A stretch of 35,833 bases of DNA from an uncultured Bacilli bacterium (GCA_947632435.1 CANRPC010000017.1:1-35833), one strand, 5' to 3'; shown: positions 10,115 through 35,833, counted from the first letter of the stretch. The notes: generated from the sequence alone by a model not told the origin. A program made the numbers and translations.

Positions 10115-11253
10115 TAATTATTGCCATCACTTTCATTTAATATAGCTGAAACATAACTTTTAGATTTATCAACAAATTCACCGATAGTGGCATAACTAAA
10201 TAATTTTGCATCTAAATCTCTTAAATATTTTATTTTAACATTAGTGGAATCTTTATCATCATATGGCAAATCAATAAGATTACGTATTGATAAAAATTGA
10301 AAATAATGATTTGAAATTATATTAGCTGTTAATTCAGTTTTGTAAACAATCGCATCTATTTTTGATTTTTTTATTATTTCTTCAATATCAGATCCGCTAA
10401 AATTTTTGAATAAAATATTTAACTGATTACAATATTTTTTATAAAAATAGTTATCATTTAAAAAATATTTTATTAATTCAAATCTCGATTTTTCATTTGG
10501 TATATCAATTTTAAGTTTAAAACCAAATCTTCTCCAAACAGCTGGATCTAATAAATTCTCATGATTTGTAGCGGCAATTATTATACTTCCGTTATTTAAA
10601 TTATCTATATTTTGCAATAAACTATTTACAACTCTTTTTAATTCGCCTAATTCGTGTTCATCATCTCTAATCTTTGCAATTGCATCAAACTCATCTAAAA
10701 ATAAAATGCATGGGACTCTTTCAGCAAAATCAAACAATTGCCTAATATTCTTCGCAGTGCTCCCTAAATAAGAAGAAATTATTCCATCTAATCTAGCAAC
10801 AATTAATGGTAATTTAATCTTGCTACACAAATATTTTGCCAATTTTGTTTTTCCAGTTCCAGGTGGTCCAAAAAGCAAAATACTATTAGGGATTTGATAT
10901 CCTTCGTTAAATATTTCATTTCTACTATTATAATATTCAATAAACGTATTTATGCTTCTACAATTTTCATCGCTTAAATATATAACTTCATCAATCAATT
11001 GATTAGGATAAATCACATCAGCAATTGGCAATCTCGATTCTTTATCTACAGGTATATTTATAAAATTATTCATTATAATTTGATTTTTTTTAGAAGGCGA
11101 ATTAGAAATTATATTTTCTAGCATTTTTGCTTGCCTAATATTATTAGATTTTATTAAATTATCAATCATCAACTTAGTATAATTTATTACTTTGTCATCA
11201 TCATGTTTTAATGCACCTTCAATTATTTTATATATTTCTACTGAAAAATCCAT
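10114..11253 (-). CDS. ietA: AAA+ ATPase of an IetAS-type defence pair
   Basis: This 379-residue protein has one central AAA+ module. The Walker A is GPPGTGKT with Lys135, the Walker B is LFLDEFD with Asp187-Glu188, sensor 1 Asn lies in AATNHENL, and the arginine-finger region is DPAVWRRFGF. The N-terminal 110 residues are helical and presumably bind the partner or substrate. The closest general match is the FtsH/ClpX-like classic AAA clade. In IetAS pairs the ATPase is the partner that controls or feeds the protease; which of the two restrains the other here cannot be read from sequence. The start is backed by GGGAGAG. The operon has its own promoter (11277-11315). Confidence 0.85.
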   Translation of the reverse strand: MDFSVEIYKIIEGALKHDDDKVINYTKLMIDNLIKSNNIRQAKMLENIISNSPSKKNQIIMNNFINIPVDKESRLPIADVIYPNQLIDEVIYLSDENCRSINTFIEYYNSRNEIFNEGYQIPNSILLFGPPGTGKTKLAKYLCSKIKLPLIVARLDGIISSYLGSTAKNIRQLFDFAERVPCILFLDEFDAIAKIRDDEHELGELKRVVNSLLQNIDNLNNGSIIIAATNHENLLDPAVWRRFGFKLKIDIPNEKSRFELIKYFLNDNYFYKKYCNQLNILFKNFSGSDIEEIIKKSKIDAIVYKTELTANIISNHYFQFLSIRNLIDLPYDDKDSTNVKIKYLRDLDAKLFSYATIGEFVDKSKSYVSAILNESDGNN

Positions 11254-14606: not shown

Positions 14607-16193
14607 CTACAAATTTATTTCTTGATAATTTTCAAGTTTAATTAAGCGATGAGAAATCATGATAATAGTCTTTTTTAAACTAGCTAAAGAAAGGACAATT
14701 TCTTGTTCTGTTTTTAAATCTAATGAAGAAGTAAATTCATCAAGTAATAATACCTTTTTATTATTTAATAGAGAAATAGCAATTAAAATTCTTTGAATTT
14801 GACCAGTAGATAAACCTTGTCCTCTTTCTTTTAATGGAGTATCTAAACCTAATGGCATTTTCTTAATATCATTTAATAAGCAAGCTTTTTTTAAAGCATC
14901 ATTTATTTTATCTTCATCTTCACAGGAACTTAATAACTTAAAATTTTCTCTAATTGTTCCAGAAAAAATAATGTTATCTTGAGGAACATAAGAGAAAAAT
15001 TTTCTTGTCGCTTTTGAAAAGGGAATTTCTTTATCTAAATATCTTAAATAGCAACGACCTTTGATAGGTTTTAAAAATCCAAGAATCATCATAAATAAAG
15101 TGGTTTTTCCTTTACCTGATTCACCTTTAAAAACTGCGACTTCTTCTTTTTTTATGCTTAAAGAAAAATTTTCTATTACTGGTTTATCTTTTTCATAATA
15201 AAAGGTAACATTTTCAAAAACAATTTCATCAAAATCTTCAATTTCTTGAATATTTTCTTCTTCTTTTTTCAAATTTAATAAATTAGTTATTCTTTCTTTA
15301 CTAGCTTTATATGAAGCAAAAGCATTTAAATATGAAGGGAAATCACTTAAAGGACCTTCTAAATATGAAACAAGTTGTAATAAAGCAGATAAATTACCAT
15401 ATCCAAATCCATCGATAAAGGCAATTGCGTATCCCCCATATGCTAAACAGATAATATATGATAAATTCATTAACCCATATATACCTGTAAAACCTATAAT
15501 TGATAATCTATTTCTTTTTTTCTTACGTTCATAATTAATATCTAATCGTTTTTTTAATTCACTAGAAACATTATTTTCGACTTCTAAAGCTTTAATAATT
15601 TTAATATTTACAAGTGATTCTTGCATAAAAGAATTAACTCTACCATCACTTTCTAAACAAGATTTAGTGTATTTTTTCATTTTTTTAGAATAGAAATATC
15701 CAATAAATGAAGCAATAATACCTAAACCAATAAGCAATAATAAAAATTTCCAATCAATTAATATTAAAGCAAATAAAGAAAATAAAAATCGTGAACACGA
15801 AGCAAAAGCATTAGGAATAATTGTTGTTAAAAATTCTTCTAAATTTCTAACATCATTTAAATAAATATTTGTTATTTCTCCTGAATGATATTTATTTATC
15901 TCTTGTATTTCTTTATCAAGCAAAACATTATGGATATTCTCTTTAAATGTTACATCTAGATATAAAATGTATCTAGCTCTTATAATTGAATAAATAGATC
16001 TTAAAATTATTTGAAATAAAACTACTCCAATTAATAAAAAGGCATAGAATAATACCATATTCTTCGTAATATTTTTAAAAGAGGAAACATAATTAATAAA
16101 ATCGCGAGTAATAAATGCGATAGAAACTAATAAAAACGAAGATATGACATTAATAATGCATAAAATAACTGTGTAAATTCTTTTTGTATTCAT
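14607..16193 (-). CDS. ABC exporter, fused membrane and ATP-binding domains
   Basis: This 528-residue half-transporter has about six membrane helices in residues 1-290, followed by a nucleotide-binding domain. Its Walker A is GESGKGKTT (Lys363), the signature is LSTGQ (461-465, a variant of LSGGQ) and the Walker B is VLLLDEFTSSLD, with a switch His in MISHRL. A homodimer is expected. Neither a peptidase domain nor a substrate-binding protein is present. It lies just upstream of the polysaccharide genes on the same strand, 79 bp away, so export of a glycan or peptide is possible but not shown. No strong ribosome site precedes the ATG. Confidence 0.85.
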   Translation of the reverse strand: MNTKRIYTVILCIINVISSFLLVSIAFITRDFINYVSSFKNITKNMVLFYAFLLIGVVLFQIILRSIYSIIRARYILYLDVTFKENIHNVLLDKEIQEINKYHSGEITNIYLNDVRNLEEFLTTIIPNAFASCSRFLFSLFALILIDWKFLLLLIGLGIIASFIGYFYSKKMKKYTKSCLESDGRVNSFMQESLVNIKIIKALEVENNVSSELKKRLDINYERKKKRNRLSIIGFTGIYGLMNLSYIICLAYGGYAIAFIDGFGYGNLSALLQLVSYLEGPLSDFPSYLNAFASYKASKERITNLLNLKKEEENIQEIEDFDEIVFENVTFYYEKDKPVIENFSLSIKKEEVAVFKGESGKGKTTLFMMILGFLKPIKGRCYLRYLDKEIPFSKATRKFFSYVPQDNIIFSGTIRENFKLLSSCEDEDKINDALKKACLLNDIKKMPLGLDTPLKERGQGLSTGQIQRILIAISLLNNKKVLLLDEFTSSLDLKTEQEIVLSLASLKKTIIMISHRLIKLENYQEINL

Positions 16194-20739: not shown

Positions 20740-21621
20740 TCATTGTTTGTTAATAATTACATCAATCATTTTTTCACCAATAGCTTGAATAGCAGGAATG
20801 GCAACTGAATTTCCTAATTGTTTCATTGCGGCACTTTTTGAAACTGGGAAGACAAAGGAATCGGGAAATCCCTGCATTCTTTTTCCTTCTTTTGGACCTA
20901 TACGTCTTTCAATACCATCAACGATATAACCATCCCAATTTCTCCTATCATTAATCGGTGAATTTTTTCCACCAACTCTTAAAGTAAAACCTATTTTTTT
21001 ATCAACATGTCCTTCAAAAACATCACTCATTGTCTTTGTTAATGGAACTGGTTTAGGAAAGTTAAATAAGCTACCATTTATATCATTTCTAAAACAAATC
21101 ATATATAATCTTGGTCTGTGTTGAGGACAATTAAAATCCGATGCTTTAACAATTTGATAATACATTGTATATCCTAATTCCTCTATTGTTTTTTTTATAA
21201 TTTCGAAAGTTTTTCCACCTTGATGTGTAAAAAGTCCTCTAACATTTTCTAAAAAAACTGCTTTAGGTTTTTTTATTTTCATAATACTAGCTATATTAAA
21301 GAAAAGTGTTCCTCTTGTATCTTCAAATCCTTTCTTATTACCTGCTTGTGAAAATGGTTGACAAGGAAATCCTGCACAAATAACATCATGATTTGGTATT
21401 GAATTAGGATCTACTTTAGTTATATCTCCTGCATAAAATTCATTAGGATGACCATCTTTAAAAATTTTTGTGGATGTTGAACTAAAATTTGCTGTATAAG
21501 TTTTTCTACAATCTTCATCCCATTCCGAAGCAAAAACACATTCACCACCTAAATTATCCATCGCTATATGAAAACCACCAATTCCTGCAAATAAATCAAT
21601 ATAAGTAAATTTTTTACTCAT
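20740..21621 (-). CDS. DNA (cytosine-5) methyltransferase of an HpaII-like system
   Basis: The enzyme methylates cytosine C5 in the site of its partner endonuclease. All main motifs are present in 293 residues: motif I DLFAGIGG (9-16), motif IV GFPCQPFS with catalytic Cys87, motif VI ENVRG (125-129), motif VIII CPQHRPRLY (165-173), a short target-recognition region (about 185-245) and motif X LGNSVAIP (269-276). It is short for a C5 enzyme but not truncated. It starts 3 bp after the controller gene, with GGGAG inside that gene, and stops at TGA. A CCGG target is inferred only from the neighbouring HpaII-like gene. With the endonuclease frame broken, the cell would still methylate. Confidence 0.92.
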   Translation of the reverse strand: MSKKFTYIDLFAGIGGFHIAMDNLGGECVFASEWDEDCRKTYTANFSSTSTKIFKDGHPNEFYAGDITKVDPNSIPNHDVICAGFPCQPFSQAGNKKGFEDTRGTLFFNIASIMKIKKPKAVFLENVRGLFTHQGGKTFEIIKKTIEELGYTMYYQIVKASDFNCPQHRPRLYMICFRNDINGSLFNFPKPVPLTKTMSDVFEGHVDKKIGFTLRVGGKNSPINDRRNWDGYIVDGIERRIGPKEGKRMQGFPDSFVFPVSKSAAMKQLGNSVAIPAIQAIGEKMIDVIINKQ

Positions 21622-21624
21622 AAT

Positions 21625-21873
21625 TTATTCTCCCTTATTAGACAAAAATATTTCGCAATTAAAAGGTTCAAAAAAAGTTTTTAAAGTAATACCTAAACCA
21701 TTACAAATAGCATTTAAATTCTCAATTGTTATATTTTGTTTTCCTGATTCTATTCTTGATAAATATGTCCTATCAATATGGATTTTTTTTGAAAATTCTT
21801 CTTGATTTAAATTAGTTTGAATTATTCGTAAATCTCTAACTCTTTTTCCTATTATTTCTTTTAACATAGTCAT
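21625..21873 (-). CDS. XRE-family controller (C) protein of the restriction-modification system
   Basis: This 82-residue helix-turn-helix protein (QEEFSKKIHIDRTYLSRIESGKQNITIENLNAICNGLGIT) has the typical size and form of C proteins, which time endonuclease expression after entry into a new cell. The order C-methyltransferase-endonuclease is tight and on one strand. AAGGAG precedes the first ATG; a second in-frame ATG lies two codons on. The upstream region carries two controller-box-like operators (21906-21938), which supports the C-protein role beyond simple homology. Confidence 0.88.
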   Translation of the reverse strand: MTMLKEIIGKRVRDLRIIQTNLNQEEFSKKIHIDRTYLSRIESGKQNITIENLNAICNGLGITLKTFFEPFNCEIFLSNKGE

Positions 21874-21890
21874 ATAAAAACTCCTTAATT

Positions 21891-21938
21891 AATATATCAT
21901 TATGTGACTTAAAAGTCAATTACTGTGACTTATGAGTA
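21891..21938 (-). promoter_or_regulatory. Promoter of the restriction-modification operon with two C-boxes
   Basis: Box 1 is GACTTAAAAGTC (21906-21917) and box 2 is GACTTATGAGTA (21927-21938), 21 bp apart and each preceded by TGT. This resembles the GACT-N4-AGTC double operators of known C proteins. On the minus strand TTGACT (21914-21919) and TATATT (21891-21896) are spaced 17 bases. Box 1 overlaps the -35 and box 2 lies upstream, the usual activator/repressor layout. The transcript would begin almost at the ribosome site. Confidence 0.75.
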
Positions 21939-21954
21939 TCAATTAAGTTAATTA

Positions 21955-21971
21955 TAATCTAAGTGCAACAA
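21955..21971. repeat. 17-bp direct repeat, right copy
   Basis: TAATCTAAGTGCAACAA is identical to 16248-16264. It lies between the controller-gene promoter and the end of the 21991 ATPase gene. Confidence 0.6.
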
Positions 21972-21990
21972 ATAATATTTTTTTATCTTT

Positions 21991-23334
21991 TTAAATAAGA
22001 AAAGCCATATAATAAGGAATTGTTAAAATATTATTTGTTTCACCAATATTGCATTCTTTAAGTCTTATTAATTTGTTTACTTCAGGATATTTTATTTTAT
22101 TACTAAGAACTTCTTTCGCAGATTTAGTGTTTCCATTTTTTGCTTTTACCTCTACTAAAGTAATTTCTTTTTGATATTTTGTAATAAAATCTATTTCTAA
22201 GCCACTATCTTTTGAAAAATAATATAAAGGTTTAAAGTTTTTCGAAAAGGCATCCGCGATAATATTTTCATAGATTGCGCCTTTATAAATACCTAAATCA
22301 TTTAATAATATCTCACCTGCAGTTTCTTCATCAAGAAGCGCTACTAAAAGTCCACTATCGCATAAATATATCTTAAAAATATTGTTAATTTTATTTCCTT
22401 CTAATGGTGATTCAGGAATAGATAAATTATAACATAAGCAAATAAGTCCATAATCAACAAGCCATTGTATCGCAGCTTCATATTTTTGAATTGATGATTT
22501 TTTATCAATTTTAGAAATCATAAATTTTTTATTTTCTTTAGCTAATTGTGATGGAATTGAATCAAAAACACGATTTATTCTAGCTAATAGTTCTTTATCT
22601 ACTTTTTCTGATTCATTTTCATCTAAATGTTTTGCAAAATCATCTTTAAAACCTTCTAAAATATCTCTTTGCTCTATTCGTACTTGATTAAAATCGTTTG
22701 TTTTGATAAAAACATTTACTACCGAAGGCATTCCACCTACACATATATATTCTTTAAAATATCTTAATAAAGAAGTATGAATAGATTCAGAAATAATCTC
22801 TTTATTATCAAAACACTTTTTTAAATATTCTATAATATCCTCTTTAATCCCTTTGGCCCATAAAAACTCTTCAAAATCCATAGGTTTCATATAACAAACA
22901 TGTTCAAATCCAATTGAAACTCCACCTGAATATTTTAAATTATAACCTCTTATTCCAAGTAATGATCCTGTAGCAATTACATCAAATCTTCCATCTTCAA
23001 CTAATGGTTTTAATGCGGCTCTAGCACCTGAACATTCTTGAATTTCATCAAAAATTAATACCGTTTCAAAAGGAATAAATAAACAACCTGCTTTTTTTGC
23101 TGAAATGTTTTTAATTAATTCATCAACATTAAGATTTCCTTTAAAACAAGATTTCATATCTATTTCTACTTTAAAATTAATATATATCACATGTTTATAA
23201 TTCTCTTTTGCAAATTTATTAACAATAAATGTTTTTCCAACTTGTCTTAATCCTTTTAAAACAAAAGCCTTTTTATTTATTTTTAAATTTGCTTTCCATA
23301 ATTTTAATTGATCTTCTATTTTCCTTCTAAACAT
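21991..23334 (-). CDS. AAA_14/DUF4143-family ATPase
   Basis: This 447-residue protein has an N-terminal P-loop ATPase domain (AAA_14) with Walker A GLRQVGKT (28-35) and Walker B VLIFDEIQEC. A sensor-like ATGSLLGI and the DUF4143 C-terminal part follow. The end holds a PD-(D/E)XK-like pattern, EIDFITKY then LVEVKAKNG. This is a very common accessory ATPase family in low-GC and gut bacteria whose cellular role is not established. GGAGG precedes the ATG. Three exact 20-bp repeats at 33-bp period lie over the promoter, which suggests self-regulation. A second intact member lies at 29713 and a decayed one at 29337. Confidence 0.88.
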   Translation of the reverse strand: MFRRKIEDQLKLWKANLKINKKAFVLKGLRQVGKTFIVNKFAKENYKHVIYINFKVEIDMKSCFKGNLNVDELIKNISAKKAGCLFIPFETVLIFDEIQECSGARAALKPLVEDGRFDVIATGSLLGIRGYNLKYSGGVSIGFEHVCYMKPMDFEEFLWAKGIKEDIIEYLKKCFDNKEIISESIHTSLLRYFKEYICVGGMPSVVNVFIKTNDFNQVRIEQRDILEGFKDDFAKHLDENESEKVDKELLARINRVFDSIPSQLAKENKKFMISKIDKKSSIQKYEAAIQWLVDYGLICLCYNLSIPESPLEGNKINNIFKIYLCDSGLLVALLDEETAGEILLNDLGIYKGAIYENIIADAFSKNFKPLYYFSKDSGLEIDFITKYQKEITLVEVKAKNGNTKSAKEVLSNKIKYPEVNKLIRLKECNIGETNNILTIPYYMAFLI

Positions 23335-23344
23335 TGTATCCTCC

Positions 23345-23430
23345 AGGTTTTTACAAGCGAGTTTATACTAATATTATAGGTTTTTACAAGCGAGTTTTCA
23401 ATAAAATTTAAGGTTTTTACAAGCGAGTTT
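23345..23430 (-). repeat. Three 20-bp iterons at exact 33-bp period before the ATPase gene
   Basis: AGGTTTTTACAAGCGAGTTT occurs at 23345-23364, 23378-23397 and 23411-23430, with no mismatch. The unit is GC-richer than the spacers. The first copy touches the ribosome-binding site, the middle copy fills the promoter spacer and the third lies upstream, so a protein bound to them would block both transcription and ribosome access. Confidence 0.95.
23373..23401 (-). promoter_or_regulatory. Promoter of the 21991 ATPase gene, embedded in the iterons
   Basis: On the minus strand TTGAAA (23396-23401) and a perfect TATAAT (23373-23378) are separated by 17 bases, and those 17 bases are the core of the middle iteron. 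The start would be near 23366, giving a leader of about 30 nt that contains the whole first iteron. Confidence 0.75.
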
Positions 23431-23457
23431 TGCTAAATGTAAATGATTTCTACTTTA

Positions 23458-25422
23458 TTATAATTTTGTTACAATTTCTTGTTGATACCAAATATTTGGA
23501 GCGGTATTAGATTGAAAAGCTTGTTCAAATATTTTGTATAATTGGGCATAAGTGAAATGTTTTTGCAATATGGTTTTAATTTCACTTGTTTGACAAGATA
23601 TTATTTTCATTCCATCGACAACCTTTGATCCATCATGTGAGTAATACTGATTATTTTTTCGCATTCTAAAATCAGAAATGACATTTATATGTAAATATGT
23701 TGTTGCAAATAAACAATATGCTTCTTCTTCATGAGAAAGAAGATATTCACCTAAGTGTCTTGATACAGGTTCCATCTCCATTCTACGTTGATTTGTACCA
23801 CCTGATAATGTAGCTTCAATTAAAAGTGTATGTGCTGGATAAAACTCTGTTGCTTTATAATGATACGTTATATCTTCATGTTCACCTGATGCATGAGTAA
23901 TAGGTAGCAAATCGGAATCTAAGGATAAATTCATATATTCAAGAACTTTACCTTGTCTAAAAGAAATTTTATACCAAGCAACTGCAATAATATATTCAAA
24001 AATTGTCGGTATATCAGCATTATTTGTAACCATTTCTTGAATTTCTAAATCTCTTCTTTCTTCAAATAGTGTCATAAGTAAAATCAATTTTTCATCAGTA
24101 AACTTTTCATCAATTAATCGATTGAACCTATCATATCTTTTTTGCTCAACAAATTCTTGTACATCGTATAAATTTTTAACTTGAACATCATATAGTTCTT
24201 CAACCTTTGCAAAAAGTGCTTCATGTGTAATTTTTAATCCAGTAATAATAGGTAAATCAATATTAGAAACAAGTGTAAAATCTTTACTATATGCAAGTAT
24301 AGGTAATTGTTTAGCTATTAAATTAAAAAAGCAATTTGGAATAATGTCAAATTTAACTTTATTGTCTTGAAATAAAATAGTATCTGTTATTTTAAAATAT
24401 CTGCGGTTTAAATCAAAGTAATCAGAAAAAAGACTTTTAGCTTTGAATAAGTGTAAAAGTTTAAAAAATTCTGATCTTAACTCTATTTCATCACGACAAC
24501 AAAAAAGACTTTTTTTAATATTTAAAGCAGAATAACCTTCTTTCTCCACAGCTTTTTTAGATTTATTATTAAATAAATATTGTCTCCAAAGTGTAGCATT
24601 TTTACCACTTATATTTTTAGTAGCATAAAAAAGTTTAATAACTGATTCGTTAGAATGAGTGTTAAAAACATCTAAAATCGCTAGAAAAAGATTGTAGTAT
24701 GGTCTATCGTAATTTTTGCTTTTGCGATTCATTCCTATTTCCATGAATAAATTTTCCGAAAGATCTCCTTTTAAAAAAGTCAAATATGCTTCATAATAAT
24801 TATCCATATCCATTAAGATAGTTATAATCGTTTCATCAATTGTTAATTTTCCTCGACGAATTTCCTCGATTGCATTTAAGATATAATCTGTTTTTTTCTT
24901 ATTGATGGCAAATGGTAAAAGGTAAGTAAATTCTTCTTCTGAAAGTTCACCAAGACGATTAAGTGCAATAGCAAAAATTAAAAATGGACGAACATAATTA
25001 TTTCCATCTAATGAGCAAGATACTTTTAACATTTGTTTAAAATATATAAAACTATCTGCAGGGATTTGTAATATATTATCAGAATTAAAATTTTGTTCAT
25101 TGGAAATTTTTAATAATGCTTCACCAACTTTAGTTAAATGACGTTCATCATCAATTAATCCTAAATCAACAAGTCCAGAAGTTTTTTCACGTGCATCTTT
25201 TGCTTTTCTTAAAGCATCACCTAATATAAAATCTTTTGCTTTTAAAAAATCATAATATGCTTCTTGTAAAGGTTCATTTTCTGACCATTTTTGTGAATCA
25301 AATTTAGGATTAAGCCAAAATTCATGAAGAAAAGCGAGTTGTTTTTCAATTTTACGATTAAATTCAATCATTCTAAAACTTGTTGTTCCAAGTGACCAAC
25401 AAAAGCTTTTATAAGTGGACAT
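23458..25422 (-). CDS. AlwI-family type II restriction endonuclease
   Basis: This 654-residue protein opens with the family-typical WSLGTTSFR, followed by helical recognition domains. A nuclease domain lies near residues 530-560, where LLIEATLSGGTNQRRMEMEPVSRHLGEYLL matches the E-T-L...Q...E.EPV.RH pattern of AlwI-type enzymes. AlwI is a type IIS enzyme (GGATC, cutting outside the site); the same target here is inference. AAAGGAG precedes the ATG. It follows the double methyltransferase by 16 bp on the same strand. The length is normal and the frame intact, so unlike the HpaII-like system this one looks functional. Confidence 0.85.
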   Translation of the reverse strand: MSTYKSFCWSLGTTSFRMIEFNRKIEKQLAFLHEFWLNPKFDSQKWSENEPLQEAYYDFLKAKDFILGDALRKAKDAREKTSGLVDLGLIDDERHLTKVGEALLKISNEQNFNSDNILQIPADSFIYFKQMLKVSCSLDGNNYVRPFLIFAIALNRLGELSEEEFTYLLPFAINKKKTDYILNAIEEIRRGKLTIDETIITILMDMDNYYEAYLTFLKGDLSENLFMEIGMNRKSKNYDRPYYNLFLAILDVFNTHSNESVIKLFYATKNISGKNATLWRQYLFNNKSKKAVEKEGYSALNIKKSLFCCRDEIELRSEFFKLLHLFKAKSLFSDYFDLNRRYFKITDTILFQDNKVKFDIIPNCFFNLIAKQLPILAYSKDFTLVSNIDLPIITGLKITHEALFAKVEELYDVQVKNLYDVQEFVEQKRYDRFNRLIDEKFTDEKLILLMTLFEERRDLEIQEMVTNNADIPTIFEYIIAVAWYKISFRQGKVLEYMNLSLDSDLLPITHASGEHEDITYHYKATEFYPAHTLLIEATLSGGTNQRRMEMEPVSRHLGEYLLSHEEEAYCLFATTYLHINVISDFRMRKNNQYYSHDGSKVVDGMKIISCQTSEIKTILQKHFTYAQLYKIFEQAFQSNTAPNIWYQQEIVTKL

Positions 25423-25438
25423 TTTTTCTCCTTTAATA

Positions 25439-27577
25439 TCAATAATTTACTATTAAAACTTCATCAGTTTTTGATGTTTTGTCTTTAGTCTGATAATTTG
25501 AATTAGCGTAAGAATAATCTAAATAAATTACCCGATATTTATCAATATTTTTATTTACCCAATCGAGTAATATATTATTTTCTTTACCTTTTGAATGTAA
25601 AACATTTGATAAAGCAAATCTTATTCCTTTTTCATTTAACTTATCTAAATAGTTAAGTAATTCTTTTTCTAAATTTTCATTCCATCCGTTTTGTTCATTA
25701 TATGTAGCACAGGAAATTAAATATGGAGGATCAACATATACAAAAGTTTTTTCATTCCAAGTTTCATTTGGTAATTCTTTAAAGTCATAACTTTCAAAAG
25801 TATAATCACCACTTTTTAATCTATCAATAAACATAGAAAGTTTATCTTGCATTTTCTTATTAAAATCACGTTTGCCACTAGGTAAATTAAACTCTCCTTT
25901 TTTATTGAAACGAATTTGATTATTAAATGCATAAATTATAAGGACATATAAAGTAATATAGTATAAAGAATCATGATTCGTGCATTTATTAAAATCATCA
26001 CGTAATTTCATAAATTGAGGAGTATTATATTTTGCTAAACCATCCTCGCTATTGCATCCATAATATTCATAACCATATTTATTTGAATTAGATAAACCAT
26101 ATTTTTCAATAATATTTTCAATTAATTCAAATGTAGTTTTTTTATCATTATTCTTAAATGTATTAAACATATATTTAAGTAATGAGTTATTATCGTTAAA
26201 AATTACCTTATTGCAAGGAATATTTATTCCAACATTACATCCTCCACAAAATAAATCAACAAAACAATCTATATCTATAGGAAAGTGTGGTAAAAGTTGA
26301 GGCAAAAGCTTATATTTACCTCCAATATAATTAAGTGGAGATTGAATTAATTCTTTTTGTTTATAATCATAGCATTCACAAAGAAATAATCTTTCTTCGT
26401 TATCTTTAATATTAGATTTTCCAGCACTAAAAACACGGTAATTTTCTGAAAACACTTTTAAACGACCTTTTTGCGAAAGAATTCGCATAATATCATTATC
26501 GCTTATTTTAGCATTAGAACGCCCATTTCCTTTTTCTGCCATATTGTTATAAGAAAGAAGAATGTATTTTGCTTTAATTTTTCTAATTAAATCTTCGAAT
26601 GCTTTTACTGCATTTGAAGTACAATAATCGCTTTTTAAATTATCACGATTCATCTTTAACCCTACACCAAAAACTTTAGGTTTTTCCCACTTAGCTACAT
26701 TTTCAAGCAAATGGTATGTATCGCAATATTGGCGAGAATTATAAGGTGGATCTATATATACTAAATCTGCTTCAATATGCTCAACAAGAACATTTGCGTC
26801 CTCGTTGTAACATTGATTATTAACATTATTATTATTTGAGGCTAATGGAACACTTAACTCTAAATGTTTCTCAAATTTTTTTCCTTTAATATATGCATCA
26901 TAATGACCACATGTATTTGCTATTTTATCCATTGCATAAAGAAGTGATGTTATTAATATTGCTTTTTCACGAGTATTAATCTTTTTTTGCTGAAAATTTT
27001 TTTCAATATCTTCACGAATAAAACCTATTTTTCTACAGTCTTCTAAAGAGAAAAATGTATCGGCAAAATTTTTAGACATATAATTTTCATCTGTCGAAGT
27101 TACAGCGTTATAATAACAGATTAAATTTTGTATCTTTTCTTCATCATAATGCTCAGAGCTAAACCATGCTAAATGACAAATATAATTAGAATATAGTAAA
27201 TCATTAGTAATAAGTTTTTTATTTATAAAAGCTGATGCAACTGAACCCGTTCCTGCAAAAATATCTGCGACAGTATTTACTCCTTGACATTCTTTTAAAA
27301 CTGTTGAGTTGATAAAATTCAAAAGCTTATATTTATTTCCTAAATAACGACGATTATTAATATTAATAGTTTTAAATTTTAAAGTTTCTTTTAAAGTTTT
27401 TTCATTTTTCTTATCTAAAATTTCACGAATTTTAGAAATAGTGTTTTGATCCCATATATAACGCCCAGTTGAAGTCGTTGGAACATTAATAAGTCCATTT
27501 TTAATTAGATAATAAAAAGTTGATCGACTTAATTTGAATTCTGACAAAATTTTATTCGATGTTAAAGAAGATGCCAT
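25439..27577 (-). CDS. Fused double D12-class adenine methyltransferase with N-terminal HTH
   Basis: This 712-residue protein has three parts. Residues 1-50 form a MerR-like helix-turn-helix (TSNKILSEFKLSRSTFYYLI). The first D12 N6-adenine methyltransferase has FAGTGS (107-112) and DPPY (276-279). The second is Dam-like and has YIGGKYKLL, DLFCGG (441-446) and DPPY (616-619). Two domains are expected when both strands of an asymmetric site need methylation, as in FokI- and AlwI-type systems. I start at 27577 because AGGAG lies 7 bases upstream; the frame runs 7 codons further to 27598 but those would contain the ribosome site. It stops at TGA. The HTH probably makes it its own repressor (see 27619). 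Confidence 0.88.
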   Translation of the reverse strand: MASSLTSNKILSEFKLSRSTFYYLIKNGLINVPTTSTGRYIWDQNTISKIREILDKKNEKTLKETLKFKTININNRRYLGNKYKLLNFINSTVLKECQGVNTVADIFAGTGSVASAFINKKLITNDLLYSNYICHLAWFSSEHYDEEKIQNLICYYNAVTSTDENYMSKNFADTFFSLEDCRKIGFIREDIEKNFQQKKINTREKAILITSLLYAMDKIANTCGHYDAYIKGKKFEKHLELSVPLASNNNNVNNQCYNEDANVLVEHIEADLVYIDPPYNSRQYCDTYHLLENVAKWEKPKVFGVGLKMNRDNLKSDYCTSNAVKAFEDLIRKIKAKYILLSYNNMAEKGNGRSNAKISDNDIMRILSQKGRLKVFSENYRVFSAGKSNIKDNEERLFLCECYDYKQKELIQSPLNYIGGKYKLLPQLLPHFPIDIDCFVDLFCGGCNVGINIPCNKVIFNDNNSLLKYMFNTFKNNDKKTTFELIENIIEKYGLSNSNKYGYEYYGCNSEDGLAKYNTPQFMKLRDDFNKCTNHDSLYYITLYVLIIYAFNNQIRFNKKGEFNLPSGKRDFNKKMQDKLSMFIDRLKSGDYTFESYDFKELPNETWNEKTFVYVDPPYLISCATYNEQNGWNENLEKELLNYLDKLNEKGIRFALSNVLHSKGKENNILLDWVNKNIDKYRVIYLDYSYANSNYQTKDKTSKTDEVLIVNY

Positions 27578-27618
27578 AATCATTCTCCTATGCAACATAA
27601 TGTTTACTTCTATTGGAC

Positions 27619-31153: not shown

Positions 31154-31294
31154 TTATTTGGAGAAATCACCAAAATCAAAATCAAATCCCTCATCAAAAT
31201 CTTGTGCTTCTTTTACACCACCTTGTGATAATAAAATAATGTCATCAATTTTAATGTTGTCTAATACTAATTCAGGTTTAATATATTTTTTCAT
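31154..31294 (-). CDS. 46-residue micropeptide with a YxxPxL leader-like start
   Basis: ATG 31294 is preceded by GAGGTG and lies 12 bp after the stop of the 734-residue secreted protein. The peptide begins MKKYIKPELVLDNIKIDDII, passes through LLSQGG and ends in an acidic, Phe/Gly-rich tail (FDEGFDFDFGDFSK). The peptide at 34539 has the same layout and the same place after a related secreted protein. YxxPxL also occurs in leaders of some RiPP precursors recognised by RRE domains, such as lasso peptides, but no modifying enzyme is in the window. There is no signal peptide. The translation signals and recurrence make the gene credible; the function is unknown. Confidence 0.75.
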   Translation of the reverse strand: MKKYIKPELVLDNIKIDDIILLSQGGVKEAQDFDEGFDFDFGDFSK

Positions 31295-31306
31295 TTTTCA
31301 CACCTC

Positions 31307-33511
31307 TTAATTAAATTGTGCTGTTGCGGTTAAGCTATAAGCATTTCCATTTGCATCATATACATTAGCAGTTGCTTTAATTTCACCGCTAAATTCACTT
31401 GGTATACCTTTAACAATTACAGTGAAATAATAATAATTATCATAATTTTCTGGTTGGAACATTTGAGCAGCATTACTTCCATCATAATAATAGACACTTG
31501 TATAAACAGTTGTTTGATGATTTGTGGTTAATTCTTTACCATTAATTTCAACTGTAAATGTATAATAATCTAAATATTCTAATGCTTCTTTAGCAATATA
31601 TCCAATAAATCTTACAGAATCATTCTTTTCACTAACTGGATCCGTTTTACCAAATTGATATGCCATATGTACATTTGTATCAACATAATTTGTTTCAGCA
31701 TCCTCTACAAATTTTAAATTTACATAGTATAAATTATCTCCATTACCAGAAATTGTATGCTCTCCAGGTTCAATATTAAACGTAAATTTTTCTTGACTGT
31801 TTTCTTTACTAAAGGATTTTTGTTCATTATCAACAAATAAATGTCTACTTGTTTTAGAAGTTTCAGCAATAATAGTTAAAGTTCCAGATTTTACATTTTT
31901 AAATGTAAATGTACCATTCGTCATTAATGAGTTGCTTCTACTGCTACTATCACCATTCCACTTTATATCTGTACCACCAGAATGTACAAAACCGCCAAAA
32001 TCCTTTCCTTTTTGATAATCCTCATAATCATTAGAATGACTACTACTATCATAAATTACATATTCACTATAGTTTCCGTCATCTTTTACAATTTTTGATT
32101 CTGCAGCAAAATCTACTTCCATAATTTTTTGAACTGTTGATAATTTTGTCTTTTCTACTGTAATAGTGATACTTGTTGATTTTTCATTATCTGTTCCTTC
32201 ATAGATTTTTGCAGTAATTACTGCTTCACCACTTTTACCACCTAAAGTTAATTGACCTTTTTGATCAACATTTACAATTTCAGCTTTATCTGTAGACCAA
32301 CTAACTACTGGTTCAACATTTACTTCTTGACCATTTGAATTAGATGTTTCTACAGTTAATTGATCAGTTTCTTTAGAATAATCAGACCATGTAAAACTTT
32401 CTTTATTAATTTTTATGGTATCTGCATAAACAGCTTCTTCCCATTTTGCATAATAAGTTTTATTTATTGAATATGTCAAAACTAAATCACCATTTTGTAT
32501 TTCAGACCATCCAAGAAATTTGGATTCTTTTTTAGATATATCATTTGGTGCATTTACAAATTCTTTTAACAAATATGCATTATCTTGAATTTCAACTGTT
32601 GCAAAAACTTTTTTTATATTAAAAGATTCAAAATCCGAAGCAAATGTACCACCATTAGCATCAAATGTTGCATATGGAAGAGATTCCCATTTTGCATATA
32701 AAATTTTTGTATCAACTGCAGGAACAAAATTATTAAAATCCCATTTTTGTTCTTTTAAGCATTCTGGATTTTCATACCAACCCTCAACATATTTATGTTC
32801 AATAGTATCAATTATTGGTCCAGGAATAGTAATTTTTCCTGTTTCTTGATCAATGTTTTGTGAATTTGGTTTATCTACATCTTCGTTCCCGTTTAAATCA
32901 AATGTAACAGAACATTTTGCTGGAACTTTTAAAGTAAACACTATTTTTGTATAATTTATGGAATTATCACAATGTAAATAATATGTTCCTGTTGTTAAGT
33001 TTTCAGCAGTACCATTAACAACATCAGTTTTTTTTGTTGATTGTAAAGTTAAAATACCATTGCTATCATATGCATCACTTTTACTACTACTTATAGAGCA
33101 ATTTCGACTGGCAGACCCATTTGAATACATCTCAACATAAATTGATGCTGTGACATTCAACGGAACAACAAATGCAAAATATTTCTTTTTACTACTACCA
33201 CTATTCTTACTTGCACCGCCTGTATTTATTACTTTTTTATATGGCGCTTCTCCATTTTGTATTTTAAGTTCCGCAGAACGATACCAAGATGCACCTTCAA
33301 CTTCATCAATATTAACAGTTTTTTCAGGTAATACATTGTTTGCTACATCATTATATGTACTTTCATCAGCATTATCAAAAACTGTAGTAACAATAGATTT
33401 TATTCCTGCCGCCTCTGCTTTATTTACAACATTATCCTTAGGTAATACCATCTGAGTACCTACGACTCCAAGTAATGCTAAACTTAAGAGTAATATCTTT
33501 TTATTTTTCAT
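31307..33511 (-). CDS. Large secreted protein with InlB-type repeats and Ig-like domain
   Basis: This 734-residue protein has a Sec signal peptide (KNKKILLLSLALLGVVGTQ, cleavage likely after NKAEA near residue 34). A beta-rich domain (45-197) is followed by two Listeria-Bacteroides repeats (200-276 and 279-358, each ending YAKWE), a BIG2-like Ig domain (363-453), a carbohydrate-binding-like beta domain (463-603) and a C-terminal domain (604-734). There is no LPXTG, lipobox or terminal membrane anchor, so it is released or held non-covalently. AGGAGG precedes the ATG. Upstream lies a cre-like site. It is co-transcribed with the micropeptide at 31154. The signal region is nearly identical in DNA to that of the gene at the right edge. 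It is probably an adhesin or glycan binder, by inference. Confidence 0.85.
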   Translation of the reverse strand: MKNKKILLLSLALLGVVGTQMVLPKDNVVNKAEAAGIKSIVTTVFDNADESTYNDVANNVLPEKTVNIDEVEGASWYRSAELKIQNGEAPYKKVINTGGASKNSGSSKKKYFAFVVPLNVTASIYVEMYSNGSASRNCSISSSKSDAYDSNGILTLQSTKKTDVVNGTAENLTTGTYYLHCDNSINYTKIVFTLKVPAKCSVTFDLNGNEDVDKPNSQNIDQETGKITIPGPIIDTIEHKYVEGWYENPECLKEQKWDFNNFVPAVDTKILYAKWESLPYATFDANGGTFASDFESFNIKKVFATVEIQDNAYLLKEFVNAPNDISKKESKFLGWSEIQNGDLVLTYSINKTYYAKWEEAVYADTIKINKESFTWSDYSKETDQLTVETSNSNGQEVNVEPVVSWSTDKAEIVNVDQKGQLTLGGKSGEAVITAKIYEGTDNEKSTSITITVEKTKLSTVQKIMEVDFAAESKIVKDDGNYSEYVIYDSSSHSNDYEDYQKGKDFGGFVHSGGTDIKWNGDSSSRSNSLMTNGTFTFKNVKSGTLTIIAETSKTSRHLFVDNEQKSFSKENSQEKFTFNIEPGEHTISGNGDNLYYVNLKFVEDAETNYVDTNVHMAYQFGKTDPVSEKNDSVRFIGYIAKEALEYLDYYTFTVEINGKELTTNHQTTVYTSVYYYDGSNAAQMFQPENYDNYYYFTVIVKGIPSEFSGEIKATANVYDANGNAYSLTATAQFN
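33408..33490 (-). repeat. Signal-peptide-coding repeat shared with 35748-35833
   Basis: Within this stretch, 33456-33490 matches 35799-35833 at 34 of 35 bases and 33408-33433 matches 35748-35773 at 24 of 26 bases; the middle differs. The two secreted-protein genes share this start, while their mature parts are unrelated by eye, which points to copying or recombination of the 5-prime end. Confidence 0.85.
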
Positions 33512-33544
33512 AAATCCCTCCTATAAATAAGTCACGCTCAAAAA

Positions 33545-33558
33545 TGTAAGCGCTTTAC
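33545..33558. promoter_or_regulatory. Candidate cre site (CcpA/LacI-family operator)
   Basis: TGTAAGCGCTTTAC is close to the catabolite-responsive element of Gram-positive bacteria, with the central AAGCGCTT perfect and one arm off by a base. It lies 34 bp before the start of the 734-residue secreted protein, downstream of any likely promoter, where a bound repressor would act as a roadblock. It stands out in very AT-rich DNA. Confidence 0.5.
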
Positions 33559-33734
33559 TTATATTTCCAAATTATGCTTTTTTATTTGCTTTGTAAATAT
33601 GCTTTTTTTCAAAACAAAAAATTATGTGCCAAAGCACAATGCTAACTCAAAAAAATGAAATTATCATTATTTTATGGGTTTTTCGGTGGTTTTTTTGATG
33701 TTTTTTGACACCAAAAAATTTTTAATTTTCAGCA

Positions 33735-33755
33735 TTATTATACTACGTATAATAA
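33735..33755. promoter_or_regulatory. Inverted repeat holding back-to-back -10 elements
   Basis: TTATTATAC (33735-33743) and GTATAATAA (33747-33755) form a perfect 9-bp inverted repeat. Each arm contains TATAAT, one for each strand. The -35 for the plus strand is poor. It lies 48 bp before the lipoprotein gene at 33803. Another short palindrome, GTGC-CAAA-GCAC, lies at 33625-33636. The rest of 33512-33802 is AT-rich without a gene. Confidence 0.4.
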
Positions 33756-33802
33756 ACAGCAAAATTTAAAATACTAAAAAACATAAAATTTAAGGAGCAA
33801 AT

Positions 33803-34162
33803 ATGCAAAAGAAAAAAATTTTTATCTTAGGAATTTCACTCTTACTACTATTTTCTTGTACTAATAAAGAAAATTCTTCATCAAGTAATTCATCTTCAAA
33901 AGAATATGAATCAAGTTTATCTACTAAAAGTGAAAATGAAGAAAATAATTCATGTATAGAATCATATTCATTAAGTGATACCACAACTAAAGAAAATAAT
34001 TCTTTATCTTCTTCAACTTCAGAAGAGATAACTTCTAGTAATTATTCAACATCACTTCAGGAAACAAGTTCTAATATTTCATCAACATCAAAAGGTGGAT
34101 TAGATGTAAATTCTACTTCCCTAGATAGTGGTATATGGGAACCGCCTGTAATTGTAGGTTAA
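33803..34162 (+). CDS. Small Ser-rich lipoprotein
   Basis: This 119-residue protein has a type II signal peptide ending in the lipobox LFSC (Cys19). The Cys is followed by TNKENS and a long, low-complexity Ser/Thr/Glu/Asn region, then a short non-repetitive tail, SGIWEPPVIVG. TAAGGAG precedes the ATG. The first residues after the Cys are the same as in the convergent lipoprotein at 34252, so the two are paralogues. The disordered stretch looks like a surface spacer that would hold the short C-terminal tail away from the membrane. No known domain is seen. Confidence 0.8.
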   Translation: MQKKKIFILGISLLLLFSCTNKENSSSSNSSSKEYESSLSTKSENEENNSCIESYSLSDTTTKENNSLSSSTSEEITSSNYSTSLQETSSNISSTSKGGLDVNSTSLDSGIWEPPVIVG

Positions 34163-34203
34163 TAAATATTTAAAAATATATTTATATTTTTCCAATAAAA
34201 AAA

Positions 34204-34252
34204 GGATTGAATACTTTAGCTATTTTTAACTAAAATTTCAATCCTATTTTTT
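34204..34252. terminator. Bidirectional terminator between convergent lipoprotein genes
   Basis: GGATTGAA (34204-34211) pairs with TTCAATCC (34237-34244). The stem is flanked by an A run on the left and a T run on the right, so it can end transcripts from both strands. The right T run reaches the stop codon of the 34252 gene. Confidence 0.85.
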
Positions 34253-34536
34253 TATACTTTTGGAAACCAACTTATAGTTTCTTCTTCACTTGTAATACTT
34301 ATACTTGATTCACTACTTGTTTCTAGTTTAGATGATGAAGTTAATTCATCTTCACTAGTTGTAACTGAAGATGATGTACTTGAATTATCTTCAGTTATTA
34401 ATGTTGTAACTTCAGATGAAGAAGTATTTGAACTATCTAAATTATTACTTGAACTAGTTTTACTATTTTCTTTATTTGTGCATCCTAGTAATAACATTAA
34501 TGTTAAACTTATTACTAAGAATATTTTTTTAGACAT
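34252..34536 (-). CDS. Small Ser/Thr-rich lipoprotein, last gene of the second cassette
   Basis: This 94-residue protein has lipobox LLGC (Cys19) followed by TNKENS, identical to the 33803 lipoprotein. A Ser/Thr/Glu low-complexity stretch follows, and the tail is ETISWFPKV. Like its paralogue it ends in a short Trp/Pro-containing tail. Its ATG lies 2 bp after the stop of the 34539 micropeptide gene, so the two are surely co-transcribed and probably translationally coupled; no strong separate ribosome site is seen. Confidence 0.82.
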   Translation of the reverse strand: MSKKIFLVISLTLMLLLGCTNKENSKTSSSNNLDSSNTSSSEVTTLITEDNSSTSSSVTTSEDELTSSSKLETSSESSISITSEEETISWFPKV

Positions 34537-34538
34537 TT

Positions 34539-34688
34539 TTATTTGAATAATCCACCAAATAAACTACCAAAATCAGTTTGACCCATTGCTTGATCAGGAT
34601 CAATGGCATTTAAAACAGAAGTCATTAATACTTCATTTATTTCAACATCATTTAAAATTAATGATGGTTTTACATATATTTTTTTCAT
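34539..34688 (-). CDS. 49-residue micropeptide with a YxxPxL leader-like start
   Basis: ATG 34688 follows GGGAGAG and lies 18 bp after the stop of the secreted-protein gene at 34707. The peptide begins MKKIYVKPSLILNDVEINEV and ends FGSLFGGLFK. It matches the 31154 peptide in start motif, length, an acidic ID/NE pair near residue 17, and a Phe/Gly-rich end, although most other residues differ. That is what one expects of a conserved leader and a variable core, or of a fast-evolving small protein. It sits between a secreted protein and a lipoprotein in one operon. No signal peptide or membrane segment is present. Confidence 0.72.
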   Translation of the reverse strand: MKKIYVKPSLILNDVEINEVLMTSVLNAIDPDQAMGQTDFGSLFGGLFK

Positions 34689-34706
34689 AAATTAATCTCT
34701 CCCAAA

Positions 34707-35833
34707 TTAAGCATTTAAACTATTAATATAACTTTGATATTGTGTAAGCATTTCTTTATCATTTTCTGTTAAACCAAGATCTGTTGATTTATTAATGTAA
34801 TCAGCAACAACACCACTAATTGATCTACTTTTTGAACCACTAGGTTGTTCATCAATAGTAAATGAAACAGTTATTTCAACATCATATTTAGTTATATTAG
34901 TTAATACAAAATCAATATCATAAGAATTACTTTCACCAGTTTTACTTGGTGTTTCTTTTAATTTTGACTTATCTAAAGTGATTGGTCTTGAATCTGAATT
35001 TGGAGCTGTTTGAGCTGAAAAATTAATAGTTCCTAAAGTAGTTTTATCTTCTAAATTATCAATATAAGTTTTTAAAACTGGAACACTAAATCTTAAACAC
35101 GCTGAAGAATTTTCAAAAGAATATTTTATACCTGCATCATCATTAATAGAAGTAACTCCAGTTAAACCTAACTCAAACATTACTTCTTTATTTGCATAAA
35201 CTTCTTGTGTTGGTTCAGTAGATTCAACACTATAAGTAATTTTTAATCGTTTTATTGCACATTCTATACTTTGTGAACCTGCCAAAAAATCAATTTTAAA
35301 TTGACCGTCTATTGATGTATCAATTTTTTCCTTGTCATATATAAGAGTATAAGGTTTATTATTAGTCAAACTAGTTGGTGCGTTACTAGTACCAAAATCG
35401 TATACTGTAAATTTTTTTTCATATTGGTTCCATTACTTGAAAAATTCATATCTTTACACATTTCTGTTTCACCAATATGAATAGTAAATTTTGGATTAGA
35501 TGAATTATTAACGTAGTAATCAAATTCAAATTTTTCAATATTTTTAAAAGATTCCTTTGTTGTTAATATATAATGCTTACTTGATTTAATCCATTTTAAA
35601 TGTAGATAATTTGAATTTGGTGAGCCAAAATAACTTCCAGATTCAACTGAAGCAGCAAGTTCTTCCTTAGGAGCAGCATCTATTTCAAAATTATTTAATA
35701 AATCATCTTCTGTATTAAAATAAATTTCTTTAGTTTCTAATTTTTCTGCCGCCTCCGCTTTATTCACAACATTTTGATAACTATTCATTCCTATAGAAGT
35801 ACCTACGACTCCTAGTAATGCTAAACTTAAGAG
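34707..35833 (-). pseudogene. Second secreted protein, frameshifted and cut by the right edge
   Basis: The frame enters at the right edge in the signal peptide (LLSLALLGVVGTS, then VVNKAEAA), nearly identical to that of the 31307 protein, and runs on as a beta-rich secreted protein. At a run of eight A (plus-strand T run 35412-35419) the frame shifts. Reading nine A continues KKFTVYDFGTSNAPTSLTNN and runs to the stop at 34707, giving about 375 residues within the window. Without the change it stops at 35366. No named domain is seen in the mature part and there is no C-terminal anchor. It may be a real break, phase variation or a sequencing slip. It heads the operon with the 34539 and 34252 genes. 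Confidence 0.75.
35748..35833 (-). repeat. Signal-peptide-coding repeat shared with 33408-33490
   Basis: This is the right copy of the near-identical 5-prime coding stretch of the two secreted-protein genes. It is cut by the window edge, so the true length of the duplication cannot be seen. Confidence 0.85.

Follow-up and report, generated by a model that had tools for sequence, protein, structure and literature searches.

Linear Polyphosphorylated Peptides (LPP) are the closest described relatives of the peptides analyzed here (Popov et al., Nat Commun 17:6633, May 2026, PMC13381572). According to the main text of that paper the LPP precursor, LppA, is encoded in the enzyme cluster and has a leader of the pattern YxxPxVLxHQxIxFETxxS with a Tyr-Ser spacing of 18. 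The closing Ser of LppA (S3) is phosphorylated by LppK, and the leader is removed by LppS together with LppB, which binds the YxxP motif; the cut precedes S3. LPP clusters have been found in capsule loci, deletion of LppN in Bacillus subtilis caused no detectable change, and the role of the peptides is given there as unknown (PMC13381572). Their phyletic distribution is described as patchy in the literature.

The paeninodin and pseudomycoidin lasso peptide systems likewise combine an RRE (B1), an HprK-like kinase, a nucleotidyltransferase and an exporter; in pseudomycoidin the nucleotidyltransferase PsmN has been linked to a hexose on phospho-Ser. The SynChlorMet system comprises the kinase-like ScmC (TIGR04249) and the PqqD-like ScmD (TIGR04248).

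In this work we have analyzed contig 17 of an uncultured Bacilli bacterium (GCA_947632435.1), a stretch of 35,833 nucleotides referred to below as the window, together with the rest of the host genome and its relatives. The window carries two cassettes of a secreted-protein gene and a small peptide gene with a YxxPxL leader, which probably belong to an LPP-type system with a single set of enzyme genes and with precursor genes at many places in the genome.

Two cassettes at the end of contig 17

Precursor peptide 1, which is LppA-like (31154-31294, minus strand, 46 aa), starts with MKKYIKPEL, in which Y4xxP7 corresponds to the predicted RRE-binding motif, and ends in an acidic aromatic core, QGGVKEAQDFDEGFDFDFGDFSK. 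Its invariant Ser is Ser23 (codon 31226-31228), the predicted phosphorylation site. The gene lies 12 bp behind that of secreted partner protein 1 (31307-33511, minus strand), a product of 734 aa with the signal peptide MKNKKILLLSLALLGVVGT, whose C-terminal domain is weakly shared with other secreted proteins of the same genome. The gene of small Ser-rich lipoprotein 1 (33803-34162, plus strand, 119 aa; lipobox LLFSC, short tail with the end WEPPVIVG) and the start of secreted gene 1 are 291 bp apart.

In the second cassette, precursor peptide 2, also LppA-like (34539-34688, minus strand, 49 aa), starts with MKKIYVKPSL and has its invariant Ser at position 24 (codon 34617-34619), with the core VLNAIDPDQAMGQTDFGSLFGGLFK. 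It is separated by 18 bp from the gene of secreted partner protein 2 (34707-35833, minus strand), which is truncated by the contig end and reads as two ORFs (35366-35833 and 34707-35369), with the frame interrupted at an A8 tract (about 35414-35421). Small Ser-rich lipoprotein 2 (34252-34536, minus strand, 94 aa; lipobox LLLGC, tail end ISWFPKV) begins 2 bp past peptide 2 and is a paralogue of lipoprotein 1. Ribosome-binding-like sequences, GAGGTG and GGGAGAG, are situated shortly 5' of peptides 1 and 2, respectively. A sequence-only reading of the window had described this layout: secreted genes with near-identical signal regions, each followed within 12-18 bp by a peptide of 46-49 residues, one of them with a lipoprotein 2 bp further on and the paralogue on the opposite strand. 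This layout was borne out, the truncation and the interrupted frame of secreted gene 2 being corrections to it, and the signal-region DNA, near-identical in the two window genes, was found in a third copy on contig 21.

Searches of the window proteins against Pfam and NCBIfam assigned the peptides, the secreted proteins and the lipoproteins to no family above cut-off. For the structural model of the secreted-protein C-terminal domain (pLDDT 68) nothing in the PDB matched with an E-value below 5e-3, and the modelled fold is probably a beta-sandwich.

Putative precursor peptides in the host genome and its relatives

Profile searches of the whole host genome (1.68 Mb, a gut Bacilli-type assembly) detected ten YxxPxL peptides, on contigs 1 (two), 2, 3, 5, 13, 17 (the two described above), 26 and 40; a control search with the reversed pattern gave zero matches, and the set thus exceeds what chance would produce. 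Nine of the ten adjoin a secreted-protein gene, usually at a spacing of 11-20 bp and usually with the peptide downstream. The peptide at 75 kb of contig 1 precedes its secreted gene and that at 88.4 kb of contig 2, the tenth, is an orphan. Many cassettes also carry a small lipoprotein whose lipobox is followed by a Ser/Thr-rich linker and then by a short tail, e.g. VELPWLRYE, LEFPPIH or the above-mentioned WEPPVIVG. The modular cassette postulated from the window is supported.

In an alignment of 41 peptides only two positions are invariant, the Pro of YxxP (P7) and one Ser (S23). The distance from Tyr to this Ser is exactly 19 residues in 54 of 56 distinct peptides, and the leader middle of the host-type peptides reads [DEN][IV][IL]xxS. 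The part after the Ser comprises 12-28 residues (median 20.5) with a median net charge of -3 among the 56 peptides; it contains an aromatic residue in 51 of them and no further Ser in 23. By analogy with LppA this Ser, situated where leader and core meet, is the likely phosphorylation site. The idea that it serves only as the P1 residue of the peptidase was considered and set aside, since in LPP the phosphate is placed on the closing Ser (S3) and cleavage occurs ahead of it, although the Tyr-Ser spacing there differs by one.

The pairing with secreted proteins was quantified in a set of 56 distinct peptides from the host genome and relatives (MAG-like data), all with wide flanking sequence, signal peptides being called by a simple rule. 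Within 150 bp of 46 of these peptides there is a same-strand gene for a predicted secreted protein of at least 400 aa, against a background of 11.6% for non-secreted ORFs at the same loci (Fisher 2e-27, kinship ignored). Gene ends, broken frames or a spacing barely over the limit account for several of the ten exceptions. The order of the two genes reverses between clades and the adjacency is kept. At eight loci from distant families (L262, L263, L265, L267, L271, L273, L274 and L276) a single run comprises the enzyme genes together with those of the peptide and the secreted protein, in the first three of them in the order kinase, RRE, peptidase, exporter, NTP transferase, secreted protein, peptide, lipoprotein. 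A lack of conservation beside secreted proteins in related genomes, which had been named beforehand as an outcome that would overturn the modular arrangement, was not what the relatives revealed.

The earlier reading had also likened the leader to those of RRE-dependent peptides, and the distribution of the peptides agrees with this. Ten of the 18 genomes of the family contain peptides; an RRE was detected in nine of these and in none of the eight others, and the single peptide genome without RRE is 65% complete. Among the 279 genomes of the order, peptides occur in 29, an RRE in 37 and both in 22, i.e. an RRE accompanies 22 of 29 peptide genomes vs 15 of 250 others (Fisher 4e-17, kinship ignored). 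The discordant genomes comprise 15 with an RRE and no detected peptide and seven with a peptide and no detected RRE, four of the latter being just 64-69% complete. Within the host family, two of the three genomes in the host genus and six of the eight in a second genus (g4) lack both elements, and the pair therefore seems to have been gained or lost jointly more than once.

Recent duplicates of the cassette occur on contigs 13, 26 and 40, and the likeness and position of the small ORFs might be by-products of such duplication, the ORFs not being precursors at all. We hold this to be very improbable, as the leader pattern, the exact spacing and the adjacency are kept over many families of the class and the peptides co-occur with the RRE.

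Predicted modifying enzymes, exporter and relation to LPP

The single RRE of the host genome, a discrete protein of 97 aa (PF05402, PqqD; 45.5 bits), is encoded on contig 18 in a run with a kinase (275 aa) and a peptidase (143 aa). The kinase is barely recognized by its sequence; its structural model (pLDDT 92.9) matches HPr kinase/phosphatase best in the PDB (E 6e-7), followed by PEP carboxykinases, which have the same fold. Its homologues (n=18) share an invariant H, a GK[ST]TH-type Walker motif and the N-x-DK and P-x-x-GK positions. The kinase occurs widely in gut Firmicutes, with at least 581 related loci, and a plasmid search with a kinase yielded three weak matches. The peptidase belongs to the archaeal/SipW type (PF00717, 35 bits, above cut-off; TIGR02228, 47.2 bits, slightly below the cut-off of 51.85), and the GxSMxP, LHR and GD motifs with the Ser, His and Asp residues are invariant in 15 sequences. 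An NTP transferase (NTP_transf_5, PF14907; 110 bits) is encoded on contig 5, with a cassette at a distance of about 3.5 kb. In relatives the genes of an ABC exporter and an NTP_transf_5 protein come after the trio and complete an operon of five genes. In the host the set is divided among three contigs, which counts against the LPP-type reading.

The window itself encodes an LppD-type ABC exporter (14607-16193, minus strand) in a capsule/exopolysaccharide locus, its neighbours being, by eye, sugar transferases, a Wzz/tyrosine-kinase-like protein, RmlABCD-like genes and a flippase. It is 42.8% identical over 528 aa (full length) to the exporter of a five-gene operon in a relative (G007, locus L114) and 49.5% identical over 420 aa to that of another (G172, L122); a generic exporter (L086) reaches 31% for comparison. 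The RRE protein, peptidase and ABC exporter whose co-occurrence had been proposed as a check were all found. The view that the window is devoid of machinery fails for the exporter and holds for the RRE, kinase and peptidase, which are encoded elsewhere in the genome.

The system shares with LPP an HprK-like kinase beside a discrete RRE, a SipW-like peptidase, an NTP transferase and an MsbA-like exporter. Common to both are also an N-terminal-proximal YxxP leader ending in a conserved Ser, the lack of B2 and the link to capsule loci. On the strength of the five-enzyme match and the closing Ser, the host system is by its sequence features of the LPP type. It differs from LPP in that the precursors, up to ten per genome, are mostly provided in trans, from other contigs or far from the enzyme genes, and none of the ten host peptides was found in the neighbourhood of the kinase-RRE-peptidase trio; several relatives match LPP in this respect. 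Nearly every host-type precursor adjoins a large secreted protein, often with a small lipoprotein, and the cores are of about 20 aa vs 45 aa in LPP. The host-type leader lacks HQ and FET, i.e. the HQxIxFET middle, and has a spacing of 19 instead of 18; the system is therefore classified as a variant and not as a plain member of LPP, and the LPP cut site is not transferable to it.

A YxxPxL leader, a PqqD-type B1 and a kinase could also denote a lasso peptide system, and the best NCBIfam matches of the RRE are indeed lasso PqqD models, far under their cut-offs. The B2 leader peptidase (PF13471) was above cut-off in none of the 279 genomes of the order, the host included, with a SipW-like peptidase present in its place, and no cyclase or macrolactam synthetase (Asn-synthetase-like) was seen in any of the operons that were read completely (L262, L263, L114 and L115 among them). 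A lasso identity, rejected on account of the missing B2, is extremely improbable. The kinases of relatives also match ScmC of SynChlorMet beside a PqqD-like protein; however, the match is weak (E 4.5e-9, 36 bits vs the 125 needed), most loci lack the radical SAM pair and the precursor is a different one.

The claim that no described system has this makeup has to be given up for the enzymes and the leader logic, which are those of LPP (PMC13381572). It may still stand for the association with secreted proteins and lipoproteins, since the main text of the LPP paper uses none of the terms lipoprotein, surface, extracellular or secreted. Relative to that text the scattered in-trans precursors, the secreted-protein pairing and the leader without the HQxIxFET middle are new. 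The cassette observation has proved real and larger than first claimed, and its interpretation as a modular surface or signalling system is partly supported.

Proposed pathway and role of the peptide

The cassette would be expressed as a single transcript, as its gene order suggests, giving the secreted protein, a precursor of 44-49 residues and often the small lipoprotein. By analogy with LppB-LppA and lasso RREs, the contig 18 RRE would bind the YxxP leader, and the adjacent HprK-fold kinase would add at least one phosphate to the invariant junction Ser, as LppK does to S3 of LppA. The NTP transferase may attach a sugar or nucleotide, PsmN being the precedent. The SipW-like peptidase, with its observed Ser-His catalytic residues, would then remove the leader near the invariant Ser, and the ABC exporter would release an acidic, aromatic phosphopeptide of about 20 residues. 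Taken jointly, these steps from gene order to export are very likely correct.

In a further step, suggested by the conserved adjacency, the peptide and the protein encoded next to it may work jointly at the cell surface, the peptide as a ligand, a cofactor or a glycan- or metal-binding subunit and the lipoprotein as a membrane tether. We give joint action with the neighbouring secreted protein an even chance; the adjacency could reflect shared timing alone.

A small peptide with a dedicated exporter, in many cassettes directly followed by a lipoprotein, would also suit a signal or pheromone controlling the surface-protein genes, or a kin-targeted toxin accompanying them, with the lipoprotein as receptor or immunity protein, and the patchy occurrence of LPP fits this as well. 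However, up to ten cores per genome, most with a different large secreted protein, would be odd for one signal or toxin, Pfam and NCBIfam found no sensor domain in the lipoproteins, which consist of a Ser-rich linker and a short tail, and no dedicated regulator recurs next to the cassettes. Such a function is rather improbable.

The NTP transferase, with PsmN as precedent, and the position of the window exporter among capsule genes, paralleled by the capsule loci of LPP, raise the question of whether the phospho-Ser is a sugar acceptor, so that the peptide would prime, cap or carry a capsule/exopolysaccharide glycan and link it to the surface protein. This seems unlikely, as most host cassettes are distant from capsule genes and the LppN deletion reported for B. 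subtilis had no detectable effect (PMC13381572).

Joint action of the peptide with its neighbour remains the preferred reading. Its broadest form, that in this class a trans-acting pathway of phosphorylation, cleavage and export equips a phase-variable repertoire of surface proteins, each with a matched phosphopeptide that is a structural part bridging the secreted protein, the tethering lipoprotein and/or the capsule, is a tentative and still doubtful proposal. The pairing hints at what LPP-class peptides might do, and its tightness across the class offers, for LPP, the first concrete partner to test. With ten host precursors and none found beside the trio, precursor mining that is confined to the enzyme cluster would overlook the majority of them.

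Poly-G/C tracts, which are rare, were seen at several cassettes; they fit phase-variable surface structures and may partly represent assembly errors. The same pairing of peptide and secreted protein was also observed in some Clostridia and in an Acholeplasmatales MAG (L229, L152).

Cassette duplication and lipoprotein pairing

Two cassettes of the window's genome (L029:5087-5940 and L030:2706-3532) have almost identical leaders and lipoproteins and share a Sel1-like neighbour of 153 amino acids, and differ in their peptide cores and secreted proteins. We regard them as products of a recent duplication in which the parts conferring specificity have diverged. A small Ser-rich lipoprotein gene directly follows that of the secreted protein, with no peptide between them, at L028:729-3078 and likewise in L007/L012 (contig 21), so pairing of the two proteins can occur without the peptide.

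Homopolymeric runs at cassette genes

In this genome of 27% GC, G/C runs of at least 8 were counted in cassette-bearing and control stretches; the former contained five in 181 kb (all 9-10 long; 0.03 expected), whereas the latter contained one in 320 kb. Runs noted were G9 at L010:9638, G10 at L028:4229, C10 at L030:5567 and L013:11392, C9 at L012:403 and L289:29, C7 at L033:3494 and, in a relative, C9 at L134:8681. Several are located 30-130 bp ahead of a cassette gene or inside its 5' coding part, and this pattern suggests phase variation by slipped-strand mispairing. The reading frames of two secreted-protein genes break exactly at homopolymers, A8 in the window (35414-35421) and G10 at L028:4229, representing either a phase-off state or an assembly error. 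The orphan YxxP peptide (L033:3332-3463, minus strand; 43 amino acids, C-terminal end GDGGEIDAGETGWE), which has no secreted-protein neighbour, is preceded 31 bp upstream by a C7 run (L033:3494).

Enzyme gene variants and other window genes

Two genomes from family f31 encode a radical SAM protein (L274:8962-9924, minus strand; L276:3437-4399, plus strand) immediately next to the kinase and RRE genes, possibly a variant of the Linear Polyphosphorylated Peptides (LPP) system with a different modification. Another relative encodes the kinase fused to the RRE in a single protein with a C-terminal PqqD match (L264:3716-4744), which supports joint action of the two. At window positions 7868-11253 and 20740-27598, inspection by eye pointed to possible defence genes: a subtilase-like protein adjoining an AAA ATPase, together with a methyltransferase for cytosine and others for adenine, the latter accompanied by AAA proteins.
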